A stretch of 24,334 nt of DNA, taken from the IMG/VR virus record IMGVR_UViG_3300030098_000529, positions 1 to 24,334 of that record. The stretch is one strand, 5' to 3'. The position numbers and the translations under genes are program-made. The notes below the pieces were generated by a model. That model was not told the DNA's origin. It did not search any database and saw nothing but the letters and a program-made list of their open reading frames with translations. The DNA comes from a virus. Positions 8,001 through 19,252 of this stretch are shown piece by piece. The stretch's first letter is position 1; every line of letters starts with the position of its first letter.

Positions 8001-8554
8001 TTGCTAGTTTAGGTGTAGAACTAGCACCAGAAAAGTTTAAAGGCACTACAGGTGAAAAAGGAAGATCACAAATATCTAAAGTGGTAGGGTTTAGAGAAGT
8101 GCCTAAACACAGTTACACACAAAGAATGTTTAATGTTATAGGAAGACCTGAGTGGAGAACAAACATATTCTCAAGAGTGCCAGAGGCTGATAACAGAGTT
8201 AATGAATTGCTATTTACTTTTTTAGAAAGAAATGCTGCTTTTGTATTTAACTCTAAGCGTTTTAAAGAAGGTAGTATGAGAACTAAAATAAAACTTGTAA
8301 ACAACGCATTAACTACATCAAAAAAACAAGTGAAAACAAGATTACAAAATTCTCCAATAATAAAAGACAGAAAGTTACAGCTTGCGTATCAAATAACTAA
8401 AGGTAAATCTAGGACTGATGTAGCAAGATATCTTAAAAACTTTGCAGGAGTTGATGATATAATGGACTTAAACTTAAATCAGTTATTTATGCTTAATGAG
8501 CTTATAAAGGGTGATGATACAGCAGCTAGAAATGCTCTTAAAAGCTACAACTAA
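5099..8554 (+). CDS. Giant internal virion (DNA-ejection) protein candidate
   Basis: At 1151 residues this is the largest gene in the window. It starts with TTG behind AAGGAG. Most of it is helical and lysine-rich, but three hydrophobic Gly/Ala-rich segments stand out: residues about 254-273 (LAALGGLVGGGVSAFSVGV), about 535-560 (NLVGWSAYSTAQTVADVI) and about 754-775 (LGLAMPFGQFFNNTLAFMAD). Very large helical proteins with scattered membrane-active segments, placed last in the structural gene run, are typical of podovirus internal core proteins such as T7 gp15/gp16, which are ejected to form a trans-envelope channel. I see no transglycosylase motif at the N-terminus, unlike T7 gp16. The function is inferred from size, composition and order. 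The stop overlaps the convergent methyltransferase stop by 4 nt. Confidence 0.6.
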   Translation: MATYSIFKSLNKTPDPVGLVSDRPSPRIRDELKLSPSDLVEDKESLRRIKEYMESRHGIGVADDLSDEDIVDKFINHMRSFQGGNSITTLGETAWLAKADEDTRAVAGQAYGTFDKLGNLFGDQNTLSEKVDGVFDYAKSAILDPANLIAFGAGRLASGLTGKLAGRWARAKAIEEVAKLGPNATQAAKARTYNNFIEKSIRGARIKEGPSARVKKELAAATGTDAALSLGIDVAYQNGMIMSMQQEDWSEFQSGLAALGGLVGGGVSAFSVGVRKTSKPKGVTAQFTPDKNLAIKLASQQKEFRKKAGKNLQKILEDSIKVFTTLKQKSAFYKQEKAELAEKQGFTDKEALDEVLFWKYFFLGSDRAGVKGLAQSMRDAGINFEKRFEGDGITNFAADVIRENLSGADLDKFIATMEKGLTGAKTKASLPNFKKGLEALRLQKGKVLSNREKLDFFSKRMASNISNSGKYLAIMRQFGREIAENQKNVNADELIHNLQDPVEETILNKVTNVTNYAQNVIIRNIVTNPGTTALNLVGWSAYSTAQTVADVIKAALYSGTALTKMALGLETDKKGLYLSRVAQLNINKVRNLLDPETTFEAFESYLKARPEAQKELMRYLSGGVDNLTFKKQFGFDPEDNMFGRSTENFTNFMQTMYAVKGQDVYTKSVEFFYNIEKQLIKNYGKTYNELVNETPNLTEFFSTDQYIKVEAKAIDDTLRSVFSKKYGAKTYDFGKDPLGSFAKAVEDFRKVPVLGLAMPFGQFFNNTLAFMADFTPLGTGREIYKYFTKQESDVGDAMAKAAIGMTTVRYFAQEELKNIDEGLAWSEKRDPDTGMVRDLRYDYPYSLFKMAGRMFAHLKRGEEIPQDLIQVASETFGFRQFTRQLGEYEFGIGQMVQGLASGELSLTKEAVGKIVGNVASQAISGVTRPIDPINQVVGLAQGEDFKAIDRKQGLKVLNNSLRYVDNIFASLGVELAPEKFKGTTGEKGRSQISKVVGFREVPKHSYTQRMFNVIGRPEWRTNIFSRVPEADNRVNELLFTFLERNAAFVFNSKRFKEGSMRTKIKLVNNALTTSKKQVKTRLQNSPIIKDRKLQLAYQITKGKSRTDVARYLKNFAGVDDIMDLNLNQLFMLNELIKGDDTAARNALKSYN

Positions 8555-9084
8555 CGTCCATAAAACTGTGTCGTTTTTTTATTCCTAGCATCAAACAGAT
8601 ACCAACAACAGTTATCTTTGCCTGTCATCTTACTATCTGGTATCCACTTAACTCTCCCAACACTGACAATCTTCACTAGCCAATCCATGTAGGGTTGGCT
8701 TTGCTTTGTGTGACACCAGTCTGCGTCAAATAAGAACCATGTTGGAGACTGCAAAGCAAAATGATCTATGGCAGGATGTAGTATACTCCTAGTCCAAGGT
8801 GGGTTTGTGATCACATAATGCTCTATTTTTGTGGGTACTACAGTCACTCTAAACATATCTTTTTGTTGTATTAGGTCAGAGCCTTGAGGATAAATATCAC
8901 TCATAGACATGAATATACCGCTTGTGTGCTTCATTATCCACGCAGCTAATGCTCCGTTACCTGCACAAGGTTCTGTAAAGTAGAACTTATTTTTAGGCAG
9001 GTGCGGTACAAGTGGCATAAAAGCTGCTTCTGGTGTAGGATAAAAGTCTCTTTCAATCCTGTCGAAGTTGCTTCTCTTGCCCAT
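8551..9084 (-). CDS. Phage N6-adenine DNA methyltransferase
   Basis: The 177-residue protein opens with the FYPTPE motif (14-19) typical of phage adenine methyltransferases. It has motif I for S-adenosylmethionine binding (EPCAGNGAL, 38-46) and the catalytic motif IV (ITNPPW, 92-97), in the order of gamma-type Dam-like enzymes. It is short, with no obvious target-recognition domain beyond the core, and has a Trp/His/Cys-rich C-terminal third (DADWCHTKQ, CCWYLFDA). It would transfer a methyl group to adenine N6 in DNA, most likely to guard phage DNA against restriction. No partner nuclease is beside it, so it is an orphan. It is the last gene of the leftward arm. The site specificity cannot be read from the sequence. 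Confidence 0.85.
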   Translation of the reverse strand: MGKRSNFDRIERDFYPTPEAAFMPLVPHLPKNKFYFTEPCAGNGALAAWIMKHTSGIFMSMSDIYPQGSDLIQQKDMFRVTVVPTKIEHYVITNPPWTRSILHPAIDHFALQSPTWFLFDADWCHTKQSQPYMDWLVKIVSVGRVKWIPDSKMTGKDNCCWYLFDARNKKTTQFYGR

Positions 9085-14089: not shown

Positions 14090-14971
14090 TTACTCCTCGT
14101 CAATATCAACTATTGAGCCTACAATGTCAGAGTCTTCAGGGGATAAAGACTCTTTGTTGTTCTCTTCCCAAAAGTTGAGTATTGTAGAGTTAGTAGATTC
14201 AATCCACTCAACGAAGTTATTTAGAACCTCATTATCATCAGTGGTAACTTCAACAGATTTACCTAGTTTACCTGTGATAACACCGTAGGTTGCACCTGTA
14301 GGTATACTCTTAACTTCACCTGATAGTAAAAGCTCATAGTGTATAGGCAACCTATTCTTCTTTTGGATAGAGGAGTAAAGGGAGTCAAGGTTCTTATAAC
14401 TCTCTCTATTTTTAACATTCATAAAGAAGGGAAAAGGGTCTACATCTACAGGATTACCTTGTTCATCCATAGCTTTGTCGAGTGTACACATGCCAAATAT
14501 AGCTTTGACACGCTTAGTTTGACGCATGAGTTCCTGTGTCTTAGGAGGGAGAGCATTAAAGTCCTGCACATAACCTGATGGTCTTCCACAGTTTATACCA
14601 CCGTAGTTATCCTTCAGGTCTTGATTAAGAGACTTTGCTAAGACAGTTCTTAACATGCGTCCTTCTTTACCATCGTCACTCTTGTAAGCTCCGTCCCATC
14701 TCTGGAACTGAAACCTCTGGATAAAAGGTCTGATGGTAATTGTAGGACTGTAGTATACACTACCGTCTGGAAAAGTCACAGAGTATGATGCAGCTTTAAT
14801 AACTGCTACCTCCATATCTTCTCCGTCTACATTCTTTGTACCCATGATGGGTTGATGTAATTGTTTAACTTCAGCCAAAGCAGACTTCTTTGGGCTACTT
14901 GATTGAGATACACCCATCAAGTCAGCTAAAGCTGTAGGATTACTTTCGATTACACTTAGTTGATTTTCCAT
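14090..14971 (-). CDS. Phage single-stranded DNA-binding-like protein
   Basis: I place the start at ATG 14969-14971 (MENQLSV, 293 residues), preceded by AAAGGAG; a GTG at 15013 in frame would add 14 residues but lies upstream of the probable transcription start. The middle (about residues 50-250) is beta-rich and aromatic (TFPDGSVYYSP, RPFIQRFQFQRWDG). The C-terminus is an acidic tail ending SDIVGSIVDIDEE, the hallmark of T7 gp2.5-like and other SSBs that use it to contact the polymerase and primase-helicase. Next to polymerase and exonuclease, this is the expected place for the replication SSB. No sequence family can be assigned with certainty. Confidence 0.65.
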   Translation of the reverse strand: MENQLSVIESNPTALADLMGVSQSSSPKKSALAEVKQLHQPIMGTKNVDGEDMEVAVIKAASYSVTFPDGSVYYSPTITIRPFIQRFQFQRWDGAYKSDDGKEGRMLRTVLAKSLNQDLKDNYGGINCGRPSGYVQDFNALPPKTQELMRQTKRVKAIFGMCTLDKAMDEQGNPVDVDPFPFFMNVKNRESYKNLDSLYSSIQKKNRLPIHYELLLSGEVKSIPTGATYGVITGKLGKSVEVTTDDNEVLNNFVEWIESTNSTILNFWEENNKESLSPEDSDIVGSIVDIDEE

Positions 14972-15004
14972 ATAGTTTTTACTCCTTTTGTTAAATGATT
15001 CGTT

Positions 15005-15032
15005 ATTATACACTATACATCTTTTGTGTCAA
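15005..15032 (-). promoter_or_regulatory. Consensus sigma70-type promoter within the end of polA
   Basis: Read on the minus strand there is a perfect TTGACA (15027-15032), a 16-bp spacer and a perfect TATAAT (15005-15010). Transcription should start near 14998-15000, giving a leader of about 27 nt with AAAGGAG before the SSB-like ATG at 14971. It overlaps the last codons and stop of the polymerase gene and would drive the SSB, exonuclease, endonuclease I, nucleotide and reductase genes separately from the upstream replication operon. It implies use of host RNA polymerase. Confidence 0.75.
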
Positions 15033-17064
15033 GCCAATTATCACCTATTTTTGCTTCTAATAACATTGGCACATTAATTTGTATATCATAATACGATTCT
15101 ATTATATTATTTAAGTTATTATTTATGTCTTGTATTATTTGTAAGACACTGCTCTCCTCTGACGGATGCACATCTAATACAACAGAGTCGTGTACTGTAT
15201 TAACAAGTAAACTGTGCATCTCGTCAAATCTCAATCTGTTCTCTATCTCTAATAGTATGATAGGAACTATATCCCCTGTAGCGAAACCTTGCACAGGGTA
15301 ATTTTTAATCATAGTAAAATGTGTAGGTGCGCCACTTGCTCTTCTTTCTACATCAGGAAAAGCGTATTGTCTTCCTGACGGTGTAGTGATCTTCCCTAAG
15401 TTTAAAGCCTCATCACCTAGCTTTTTATGCCACTTAGATATGCCTTTGTACTTATCTGTAAAGTGTGTGTAATACTCAGCCTCTGCCTTACTCCTGCCGT
15501 AACCTGTAGCTCCATACAAAGGTGCAAAGGTGTGTGCTTTAGCTTCCTGTCTTGATGTAGGCTGTCCTGCGTCAGATATAACTTTAGCTGTGTAGCTATG
15601 CACATCAAACCCTGTTTCAACTTCTTTCATTGCAACTTTGTCTTGAGATAACAATGCAGCAACTCTAAACTCTAGCTGTGCAAAGTCTGCCTCAAGTATC
15701 TTACCGCCTTGCCATCTCGACACAAATACTCTTTTTACAGGGAACGTACCGCCTCTAGGCATATTCTGCATATTAGGATTTCTACCTGAGAACCTGCCTG
15801 TAGCTGTAACGTGCTGAGTAAGACCTACATGTAAGAACCCATCAGGCTTAGTAAAGTTATGTATTCCTTCAACAAAGCTAGATAGATAACTAGATACAGC
15901 ACTTTGTCGTTTTAAATCAGTTAAAAACTTGTACGCTACATCCATGTCTTTTGTCTTAGCGACTGAGATTAGTATATCTAAATAGTTTTTACTAGTTGTG
16001 AAACCGTTAGCACTTACCCACGCTTTAGATGGAGGAGCAAAACCTAGACCTGCCATCTGATTAGTGTTTGTAAATATATATCCTATAGCGTTACAGGCAG
16101 TACATTTTGATGGTCTAGCAAAAGGTGAGCCATCCTTTTTAGTTTTATATACCTTGCCTTTACCTCTACATTCCTGACAAGTGTACGCTTTAGTTTTCAT
16201 AATTAAATCACTATTAGCTTTGTAAGCTGACACAAACTCCTTTTTATCGTTGACAAACTCAAATAAGTCAGCCCACTCTTTTTTGTTGTGAACCTTTCTG
16301 GAATATATAACTTGGCTAACTTGCTCTGGTGAGTTTAAATTTATAGGTGTGTCACCCATTAAAGTCTTCACAGTAGAGTTTAGCCTAGCTTCTATATCTG
16401 TAAGCTCCTGCTCAAATTGTCTACGCACACCTGCCAGAGCTACCTTATCTATCTTAAAACCATTCATGTACATTTTAGTCAATGTCTTACACACCCTGTT
16501 AGTTATATCTCTGACACCGTGTAAAGACTGAGCCTCTGGTATAGCAAACTCCTGTTCTAATCTATGATACAGGCATTTAGTTATGTTTAAGTCTTGCTCT
16601 AAATACCCAGATAGTTCCGCTAGAGGTATTTCGTTTGTGTTGTATCCATCAGCAAAGTATTTCTTTAGTGTGTCTTGCTTTTGATAACCTAGTTCATACC
16701 TATTAGCACAAGCCTCAAGCGATACAGATTGTTTCTGTCCTCTTTGGAGCAGGTAGTCAGCTAACATGGTATCGTAAACATCACCGTCATACTTGAAGCC
16801 ACAAGACCACAACCACTGTAAATCGTGCTGTAGATTGTGACCTATCAAGAGTGTCGTTTTATCTAGCACAGCTTGTAGTTGCTTCTTTTGTGATCCATCA
16901 GTGTCTTGCTTTTCGTTGTGATCATAAGTAAATACATGCGGTTTGTTGCCCTGTGCGTTGAGTACACCTACTTGAGTTAGCGTGTTAGATGGCTCAAAAG
17001 GGTCAAGATGGGTCTTACCATCCCGTTTTGTTGTTGTGTTCTCTACGTCAAGTATTAACTTCAT
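15013..17064 (-). CDS. polA: Family A DNA polymerase with 3'-5' exonuclease and DnaJ-like zinc finger insert
   Basis: The 683-residue replicative polymerase has a proofreading domain with Exo I DVE (D6, E8), Exo II N77...D81 and Exo III Y154...D158. The polymerase domain has TATGRFSG (420-427), motif A with D460 (EADFAQLEFR), motif B with R505, K509, F513 and Y517 (F513 matches E. coli F762), and motif C HDS (H625, D626, S627) where HDE is usual. Between the exonuclease and palm, in the thumb region, lies a DnaJ-like zinc finger: C296, C299, C321, C324 in CxxCxGxG and CxxCxxxG. The same insert defines HMO-2011-type phage polymerases. T7 holds its thioredoxin-binding loop at about this place. 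It overlaps the helicase stop by 4 nt. Confidence 0.95.
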   Translation of the reverse strand: MKLILDVENTTTKRDGKTHLDPFEPSNTLTQVGVLNAQGNKPHVFTYDHNEKQDTDGSQKKQLQAVLDKTTLLIGHNLQHDLQWLWSCGFKYDGDVYDTMLADYLLQRGQKQSVSLEACANRYELGYQKQDTLKKYFADGYNTNEIPLAELSGYLEQDLNITKCLYHRLEQEFAIPEAQSLHGVRDITNRVCKTLTKMYMNGFKIDKVALAGVRRQFEQELTDIEARLNSTVKTLMGDTPINLNSPEQVSQVIYSRKVHNKKEWADLFEFVNDKKEFVSAYKANSDLIMKTKAYTCQECRGKGKVYKTKKDGSPFARPSKCTACNAIGYIFTNTNQMAGLGFAPPSKAWVSANGFTTSKNYLDILISVAKTKDMDVAYKFLTDLKRQSAVSSYLSSFVEGIHNFTKPDGFLHVGLTQHVTATGRFSGRNPNMQNMPRGGTFPVKRVFVSRWQGGKILEADFAQLEFRVAALLSQDKVAMKEVETGFDVHSYTAKVISDAGQPTSRQEAKAHTFAPLYGATGYGRSKAEAEYYTHFTDKYKGISKWHKKLGDEALNLGKITTPSGRQYAFPDVERRASGAPTHFTMIKNYPVQGFATGDIVPIILLEIENRLRFDEMHSLLVNTVHDSVVLDVHPSEESSVLQIIQDINNNLNNIIESYYDIQINVPMLLEAKIGDNWLDTKDV

Positions 17065-18287
17065 GCTGTAAACCTAGCTCTTTCTCCATCTAATTGTATA
17101 GTTATTTTACCATGCCAACCACCTTTTAACTTATTCTTGGCTATCACTAAATGCCTCTCTGTGTCTTCATTTTCTTGTCCTTCTATGGTAGGATTTTTAC
17201 TGATAAGTAACATGAGATCAGCTTCAGATGCCTTACCTGTCTTACTACCTTCCAACATAGATTGATCTACATATATTTTACCTTCAGCTTCAGCAGACAG
17301 TTGTGACATCCATAGAATAGCACACTTATATTGTTTAGCTATGTTCCTAGCATGTATAGCGGCTTCCTTTAAGTATATGTCAGATCTTTCTCCTGTTCTA
17401 GGTGCAAACTTATCGCCCATATCTAACACTACAATGTCAGGGTTCATAGCTTTAACAGCCGCCTCTACCCAATCCATGTCTTTGCCTGTTGTGTCCTTTA
17501 CATATATATTCTCTTTTATGGGTTTGTATCTAGTTGATGCTAGTGTGACGTTCTGTCGCACTTCTTCCATACTCATATTAGTTGCGGCTGAGAGATACCT
17601 AGCACCTACTCTATCATATGCTTCTTCATTACACAGTATCATACACTTTGCACCTTGCTCTGCAAACCCACCTTTGGAAGCTAACAAAGATGCGTGGAAG
17701 CTAGTTTTACCTGTATTAGGTCTAGCACCTATAACAACAAGGTGTCCACCACTAATACCCTCAACTATTCTTTGTAGTGTAGGTATGTTAAACTTCCATT
17801 GACACTGTATTGCATTAGCTTTTAACAAGGCATCTATACTCATGTCTTCCCATGTGATGTTTAAATTAGGAAGAAAGCTATCAGTGTAATCATCTAGTAG
17901 TTTTCTCAATGGCTCTAGTGTGCCTTTGTCACCATTAACGTAGTCAAAGCCTAAGTTAGCTATTTCTTCTCCTACCATCTGTTGAAACATCTTTGATAAA
18001 ACTTCAGTAGCTATACCGTTATACATAGGCTTTTCTTTTTCTAACTTAGCGAACAAATCATCATAGGAATCTTTAGTTGCTGTAGTCATTGTGCTGTTGT
18101 TAGTCATAAATAAACCTTGTAACTCCGACACAGTTAGATCTCTATCGTGTAGCTTCATAGCGTAGTCTACTGTCTGCTTAATCTTTCGTACATCTTTAGT
18201 GAATATCTTGTCTGGACAACGTACACCTTTATGATCATCATAAAAGTCTTTGTTCATCAAGCTACGGATTAATGCTAGTTCCATCAT
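17061..18287 (-). CDS. DnaB-type replicative helicase
   Basis: In this 408-residue protein, residues 1-140 form a helical N-terminal domain like that of DnaB. Residues 165-408 are a RecA-fold motor: Walker A GARPNTGKTS (187-196), catalytic acidic NEE (220-222), Walker B DIVVLDM (284-290) and SQL (328-330) with the gamma-phosphate-sensing Gln. It should form a hexamer that unwinds the fork ahead of the polymerase. Unlike T7 gp4, primase and helicase are separate genes here, with a GIY-YIG-like gene between them. Its ATG overlaps that gene's TGA (ATGA), so translation is coupled. The ring-shaped 5'-3' activity is inferred from the family. Confidence 0.9.
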   Translation of the reverse strand: MMELALIRSLMNKDFYDDHKGVRCPDKIFTKDVRKIKQTVDYAMKLHDRDLTVSELQGLFMTNNSTMTTATKDSYDDLFAKLEKEKPMYNGIATEVLSKMFQQMVGEEIANLGFDYVNGDKGTLEPLRKLLDDYTDSFLPNLNITWEDMSIDALLKANAIQCQWKFNIPTLQRIVEGISGGHLVVIGARPNTGKTSFHASLLASKGGFAEQGAKCMILCNEEAYDRVGARYLSAATNMSMEEVRQNVTLASTRYKPIKENIYVKDTTGKDMDWVEAAVKAMNPDIVVLDMGDKFAPRTGERSDIYLKEAAIHARNIAKQYKCAILWMSQLSAEAEGKIYVDQSMLEGSKTGKASEADLMLLISKNPTIEGQENEDTERHLVIAKNKLKGGWHGKITIQLDGERARFTA

Positions 18288-19252
18288 GGTGTGATTCCCT
18301 CTATTAATTCATCTACGTTTTCAGTATAGAACCATTCGTGTCTTTTTTCAACACATATTTTTTCTGCGGCTCTATGGGCTAATACTTCTGCTCTATTCCT
18401 ATCATCAGAGGTAAATATTTTTATTACTTCAAAATCCCTAAAAGGGGAAGCTGTGTTTAACTGTGCCACTCTATCTTTAGCATCAACTGCTTTTCCTATC
18501 TTATACCAATTTTTCCATGCGGGATTTGTAATAACGTATACATCACCTTCAGATCTTTTATTATAAACTTTCATCTTAGAAAAAGCTACATCTGACCAAT
18601 CATCATAACGTCCTGGTTTCCAGTCAGGGTGGCTTGTGGGTATATAGACATTATTCACCCACATTCTATCTTTATTACCTCTATCACTACAACAATATTT
18701 ACAAACGTAAACCCAGTTATTATACCTAGAGTGTGTCCAATTTACATCCTTAATTAATTTTTCTCCACAATCAATACACTTTTTCATAAGCTCCTCATTA
18801 GAAGGCTTTTGAGTAGCTTCCACGTAAGCTCTTTTAAGAGCCGTAACAGAGCTAAAGTTCTGTCTTACCGCCATCTTGCTACACTTCCTAGCTTTAGCTA
18901 ACTCAAGAAAGAACTCGTCAAGTTCAGACTGATGGTTATAGAACCATTCCCACTCTGACCGCCTTCTACGGTCAATCTTGTCTAAACTGCACTCTTTGAG
19001 CAGTTCTTGAGGAATCTGTTTAGCTTCAGGATTTACTTTACGTAAATCAGAAAGTAACTTTCCTAGCTTGTAGCCATAGCCATCAATGCTACTATCAACA
19101 GAGAACCACTTTTTCAAAGTGACATTTCGTTTGAAGTCAATCTCTTCAATCATGATAGAGATTTCAACTCCTCTGACTTGCAGAGAGTTTACCTTATCAA
19201 CAACTTCAGCTTGAGTTGGAAGGATTTTTGAAGCGGTGTTTGATTTAGCCAT
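18284..19252 (-). CDS. Zinc-ribbon protein with C-terminal T5orf172/GIY-YIG-like domain
   Basis: The 322-residue protein has three parts. Residues 1-150 are helical and basic (DRRRRSEWEWFYNH near 94-107). Residues 159-188 are a zinc ribbon, CIDC (C159, C162) paired with CKYC (C184, C187). Residues 236-320 match the T5orf172/MUG113 branch of the GIY-YIG superfamily: DVYVITN (237-243), WYKIGK (249-254), R261, E289 and EWF (306-308). Such domains nick DNA in homing endonucleases or bind DNA in other proteins. It overlaps primase by 8 nt and helicase by 4 nt, so it is a settled member of the replication operon, not a recent insert. AAGGAGG lies 6 nt before the ATG. Its job is unknown; branch cutting, homing or primase-helicase bridging are possible. 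Confidence 0.75.
   Translation of the reverse strand: MAKSNTASKILPTQAEVVDKVNSLQVRGVEISIMIEEIDFKRNVTLKKWFSVDSSIDGYGYKLGKLLSDLRKVNPEAKQIPQELLKECSLDKIDRRRRSEWEWFYNHQSELDEFFLELAKARKCSKMAVRQNFSSVTALKRAYVEATQKPSNEELMKKCIDCGEKLIKDVNWTHSRYNNWVYVCKYCCSDRGNKDRMWVNNVYIPTSHPDWKPGRYDDWSDVAFSKMKVYNKRSEGDVYVITNPAWKNWYKIGKAVDAKDRVAQLNTASPFRDFEVIKIFTSDDRNRAEVLAHRAAEKICVEKRHEWFYTENVDELIEGITP

Follow-up and report, generated by a model that had tools for sequence, protein, structure and literature searches.

A partial DnaJ domain lying between the exonuclease and polymerase domains is the published mark of the HMO-2011-type phages (PMC9038755, PMC6918029). Such a zinc finger has long served as a sequence tag of this dominant marine phage group without having a job assigned to it, and its presence in the window analysed here (the whole stretch of viral DNA, 24,334 nucleotides in length) raises the question of what it does within a DNA polymerase. 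Our searches of papers brought up no biochemical study of HMO-2011-type polymerases, and PMC9069017, which characterises viral PolAs, has no mention of HMO, zinc or the thumb.

A preliminary description of the window had placed a polymerase ORF at 15013-17064. The ORF was confirmed, and its strand, which had been left unstated, is the minus strand (17064→15013). The following features were delimited within it:

15013..17064, minus strand: family A DNA polymerase ORF (P0001), 683 aa (Pfam, AlphaFold2 model, Foldseek)
16540..17064, minus strand: 3'-5' exonuclease domain, residues 1-175 (Pfam, invariant columns)
15793..15807, minus strand: TATGR block, residues 420-424 (sequence)

Both Pfam (DNA_pol_A, E 3.7e-51; DNA_pol_A_exo1, E 2e-8) and the AlphaFold2 model (pLDDT 89.7, pTM 0.83) identify the product as a family A polymerase with a 3'-5' exonuclease domain, matching the HMO-2011-type definition, and the exonuclease residues D6, E8, D81 and D158 are invariant in a 57-row non-redundant alignment of its relatives. 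A Foldseek search with the model gave Bst/Klenow Pol I as the closest solved folds (E about 1e-29), while T7 polymerase was absent from the 50 closest, which were mostly Bst/Klenow Pol I. Over the full length, identity to HMO-2011-type polymerases ranges from 36 to 66%; among the isolates it amounts to 65.5% for Roseobacter phage CRP-2, 58.9% for HMO-2011, 41.5% for HTVC033P and 36-38% for CRP-3, CRP-235, CRP-212 and CRP-738. The polymerases of HMO-2011, CRP-1, CRP-2, CRP-3 and HTVC033P have the same order of exonuclease, partial DnaJ-like finger and polymerase (with four cysteines in those read), and the gene order of the window (integrase, primase, helicase, polymerase, exonuclease-like gene and endonuclease I) is that of HMO-2011, barring an extra GIY-YIG-like gene. 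The window phage is a new environmental member of the HMO-2011-type group, in which the finger was already known, as the preliminary description had said: the four cysteines at 296-324 and the DnaJ_CXXCXGXG match at 291-332 fit the definition given in PMC9038755.

The cysteines C296, C299, C321 and C324 lie exactly as had been claimed, between the exonuclease and the TATGR block (420), and they form the sole CxxC pairs in the polymerase. The finger is composed of:

16069..16203, minus strand: DnaJ-like zinc finger proper, residues 288-332, net charge +8 (column statistics, profile match to DnaJ motifs 2+3)
16168..16179, minus strand: first zinc knuckle, C296-x2-C299 (CQECRGKG) (sequence, invariant columns)
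16129..16146, minus strand: conserved basic turn between the knuckles, K307-x-K309-K310-D311-G312 (column statistics)
16093..16104, minus strand: second zinc knuckle, C321-x2-C324 (CTACNAIG, a degenerate CXXCXGXG) (sequence, column statistics)

Each of the 173 full-length relatives (173/173), drawn from viral contigs and phage records, has all four cysteines, and 172 of them share the 21-aa spacing. The four cysteines are also invariant in 57/57 rows of the non-redundant alignment, as are G301, D311, G312 and G328, and none of the other cysteines of the polymerase is invariant there. Conservation on this scale (173/173 and 57/57) is far from chance. The first CXXCXGXG motif is intact and the second is degenerate through loss of its first glycine, which, besides its environmental origin, distinguishes the window polymerase from the HMO-2011-type polymerases described before. 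As this glycine is kept in only 24 of the 57 relatives, a strict rule of two CXXCXGXG motifs is too narrow for the group.

A profile built from the finger matched motifs 2+3 of the E. coli DnaJ zinc-binding domain (1exk residues 26-64, E 1.8e-4), with which it shares the C-x2-C-x-G-x-G repeat and one zinc module, and Pfam gave a DnaJ_CXXCXGXG match of 21.2 bits, below the gathering score of 32.7. Judged by these matches, the finger shows the features of a DnaJ-like zinc module, which would presumably hold zinc; the name implies no chaperone function. When the single finger sequence was used as the query, ribosomal protein eL24 was also matched (E 0.22); this was judged a chance match because it was gone with the finger profile as the query. 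Recruitment of DnaK/DnaJ had been among the first proposals for the finger. The profile match speaks for such a co-chaperone module, but the polymerase has no J domain (no HPD, no J-domain family match), the Pfam score stays under gathering, and the similarity is mostly confined to the metal knuckles. Moreover, the finger has one module (two motifs) where DnaJ has two (four motifs, two zinc sites), and its 21-aa loop carries a net charge of +7, whereas the 18-aa loop of DnaJ carries +1. Recruitment of DnaK/DnaJ is therefore disfavoured, and we consider it very unlikely.

The finger has a narrow distribution. When 50,697 phage records were searched by tblastn with the thumb segment as the query, 12 records matched significantly, all of them HMO-2011-type, and no finger was found among the records outside the group; a more distant relative in a Myxococcota MAG is also without it. 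Intact-finger HMO-2011-type polymerases occur in contigs assigned to MAGs of Euryarchaeota, Flavobacteriales, Maricaulis and Rhodobiaceae (L212-L218). Their binning is unreliable, since contigs of identical name and length recur in two MAGs (L213/L214 and L216/L217), and marine genome-bin contigs with the same polymerase are probably phage or prophage sequence.

The position of the finger was determined relative to the thumb helices, whose names (H, H1, H2 and I) were carried over from Pol I and T7 through alignment:

16357..16446, minus strand: thumb helix H, residues 207-236 (model secondary structure, alignment with Klenow)
16303..16344, minus strand: thumb helix H1 motif INLNSPEQVSQVIY, residues 241-254, equal to Klenow FNLSSTKQLQTIL and T7 FNPSSRDHIQKKL (alignments, model)
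15991..16302, minus strand: thumb-tip linker from H1 to H2, residues 255-358, enlarged and containing the finger (linker lengths, model, translation)
15952..15990, minus strand: thumb helix H2, residues 359-371 (model, alignment)

In the AlphaFold2 model the order is H (207-236), H1 (246-254), the finger, H2 (359-371) and a long helix I (375-404), and when the group profile was aligned with E. coli Pol I, the insertion fell after NLSSTKQLQTIL (H1) and before TSEEVL (H2). The model thus keeps the finger in the thumb, so that, as far as the thumb is concerned, the refuting outcome named in the preliminary description did not arise, and the profile alignment bears out the thumb location given in the preliminary description. 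The same description had put the finger where T7 polymerase holds its thioredoxin-binding loop, and this held only in part: the two share the thumb and are one helix apart, but they are different insertions, that of T7 gp5 between H and H1 and that of the window polymerase between H1 and H2. When T7 was aligned with Pol I, its thioredoxin-binding insert fell before FNPSSRDHIQ (H1). The span from the NG motif, which precedes helix H, to H1 is 40 aa here, 35 aa in E. coli Pol I and 104 aa in T7; the H1-to-H2 linker is 103 aa here and 103-127 aa in the group, against 17 aa in T7 and 18 aa in E. coli Pol I. Excision of both inserts lifted the T7-to-group alignment score from 52.6 to 61.1, the best obtained, and paired NPSSRDHI with NLNSPEQV, and with Klenow as a bridge and the inserts excised, the T7 insert and the finger came to lie at opposite ends of H1. 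An unconstrained hhalign/MAFFT alignment superimposes the T7 and HMO-group inserts, which we read as an artefact of their similar lengths. Because the T7 insert precedes H1 and the finger follows it, the alignments and the model indicate two separate insertions flanking this helix, which are thumb neighbours and not equivalents. T7 gp5 is also a family A phage replicase with a thumb insertion, although its insertion has no CxxC pair.

Relatives without the finger show what else occupies the site. In the split polymerases of the Zobellviridae type (MEP402, ICP2-like and VP41s3) the linker is 55-60 aa and forms a small basic extension (net +3 to +6) at the same H1-H2 position, which suggests that the finger may be an enlargement of a pre-existing basic thumb-tip feature. 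Length does not entail a basic charge at this site: in the finger-less relative RHph_N37 the linker has 124 aa and a net charge of -1. Unlike the window polymerase, the Zobellviridae-type enzymes are divided into an exonuclease/thumb ORF and a palm/fingers ORF (seen in MEP402, Rostov-5342, QDWS535 and VP41s3), and in MEP402 and VP41s3 a small ORF lies between the two halves. Stenotrophomonas phage StenR_269, with a linker of 25 aa, has a thioredoxin-domain gene (2388-2654) immediately upstream of its family A polymerase, which lacks the finger.

In E. coli Pol I, the equivalent of the finger site is residues 591-608 of the thumb tip, within LFEKQGIKPLKKTPGGAPSTSEEV (590-613). The Pol I thumb deletion of Minnick 1996 reportedly comprised residues 590-613. 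In the part of PMC10061031 that cites Minnick 1996, truncation of the Pol I thumb is described as leaving activity in place and lowering processivity and fidelity. In T7, peptides 346-355 and 360-373, which cover the stretch between H1 and H2 with both helices, form crosslinks with the template DNA (PMC9198812), and in plant organellar Pol I a lysine-rich thumb insertion was modelled clamping DNA (PMC7699545). The plant enzymes, also Pol I-like replicases with the insertion set against duplex DNA, are likened to the window polymerase by description, and no zinc motif is reported for them (PMC7699545).

No other 43-aa stretch of the polymerase is as basic as the finger (mean net charge +7.1 in the 57 relatives). 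Lysine or arginine is found at positions 290, 307 and 309 in 100% of the 57 rows and at 310 and 320 in 98%, so that the basic residues between the knuckles are conserved to the same degree as the glycines. This bears on a reading in which the zinc site is purely structural and staples the long H1-H2 insertion rigid, with no contact of its own. The invariance of the cysteines and of several glycines would suit a staple, as would the two strands (289-295 and 329-337) that flank the finger in the model (finger-region pLDDT about 80-89). The conserved lysines and arginines argue against it, and a staple leaves the insertion itself without a stated purpose; we regard this reading as rather improbable.

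Direct grip on DNA had been offered in the preliminary description as an alternative to partner recruitment, and of the two it fits best, being supported by the thumb-tip insertion site, the conserved positive charge and the thumb-tip data from Pol I and T7. We infer, with a probability of about one half, that the finger extends the thumb tip as a strongly basic, zinc-stabilised structure that touches duplex DNA directly. As part of the H1-H2 loop of this Pol I-like phage replicase, the finger would rest its basic turn K307-x-K-K-D-G, along with K290 and K320, against the backbone phosphates of the primer-template duplex behind the active site, and DNA affinity and processivity would be raised without a thioredoxin-type partner. 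Against this reading stand the non-basic long linker of RHph_N37 and the fact that DnaJ-type zinc modules of other proteins are often protein-binding.

Thumb insertions may also act through other proteins. The T7 and human mitochondrial polymerases draw in processivity factors by this means (PMC7699545), and the finger, one helix away from the T7 thioredoxin-loop site, might by the same logic recruit another processivity partner from the host or the phage. We consider this unlikely, as the insertion point differs from that of T7, none of the window proteins scanned was recognisable as a thioredoxin or a clamp, and the finger-bearing phages infect unrelated hosts (SAR116, Roseobacter and SAR11). 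A particular phage partner proposed earlier was the zinc ribbon/GIY-YIG-like protein of the same operon (18284-19252, minus strand), which has a T5orf172/MUG113 C-terminal domain and CxxC pairs and is encoded between the primase and helicase genes. The operon is what speaks for it. Its gene, however, is patchy (17/112 related loci), is absent from the HMO-2011, HTVC033P, CRP-2, CRP-3 and CRP-738 loci, and is missing from 86 of the 102 finger-bearing loci in which both primase and helicase could be seen; this distribution largely refutes the proposal, which we find scarcely credible. Elsewhere in the window, a 177-aa protein (8551-9084, minus strand) carries an NPPW motif and is methyltransferase-like by eye, with no Pfam match.

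A better phage candidate, unnamed in the preliminary description, is encoded directly downstream of the polymerase:

14090..15013, minus strand: candidate ssDNA-binding protein (P0002) with an acidic C-tail (homologues, AlphaFold2 model, BFVD)

The actual start of P0002 may be Met15 of the ORF. Across the whole group, homologues lie next to polymerases that bear the finger (152 loci), and in 132/132 cases the C-terminal 25 residues carry a net negative charge. P0002 has no Pfam or PHROG family and no convincing family match, but the fold of its model (pLDDT 81.8) matches BFVD viral proteins named SSB (E 4e-5, 7e-4 and 1.4e-3); PDB matches to gp32-type proteins are weak and none is significant. 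P0002 is probably the SSB of HMO-2011-type phages, an assignment that we hold with moderate confidence. It is apparently unannotated, the label in the HMO-2011 record being 'hypothetical protein, FliD_C'.

The phage's own SSB might dock on the basic finger by its acidic C-terminal tail. T7 offers precedents, since its SSB (gp2.5) contacts the polymerase by way of the TBD and of the SSB's own C-tail (PMC7699545) and gp4 attaches by its acidic tails to a basic patch close to the TBD (PMC12593628); for another family A polymerase, a prediction places an SSB at the tip of the thumb (PMC10061031). The constant neighbourhood of P0002, its uniformly negative tail and its SSB-like fold point the same way, and the basic surface of the finger suits the docking of an acidic tail and the gripping of DNA equally well. 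SSBs in general have acidic tails, however, and such a tail fails to single out the finger as its target. The charges of finger and tail are correlated across clades (rho -0.41) but not significantly within them (-0.30, p 0.06; -0.15, p 0.27), and for this reason their covariation was not used as evidence. With the SSB assignment itself moderate and the interaction hypothetical, docking of the tail is possible but doubtful.

Direct DNA grip and tail docking may also have gone together: HMO-2011-type phages might have swapped a recruited processivity factor for a built-in thumb-tip zinc finger that grips the duplex and docks the SSB tail, an idea put forward tentatively, with the odds well against it. 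Between H1 and H2, the finger occupies a segment known from Pol I to influence DNA binding and processivity, and this placement makes its role a simply testable question. If true, the built-in finger and the SSB-tail dock would represent a partner-free route to a processive family A replicase, at a thumb site other than that used by T7.
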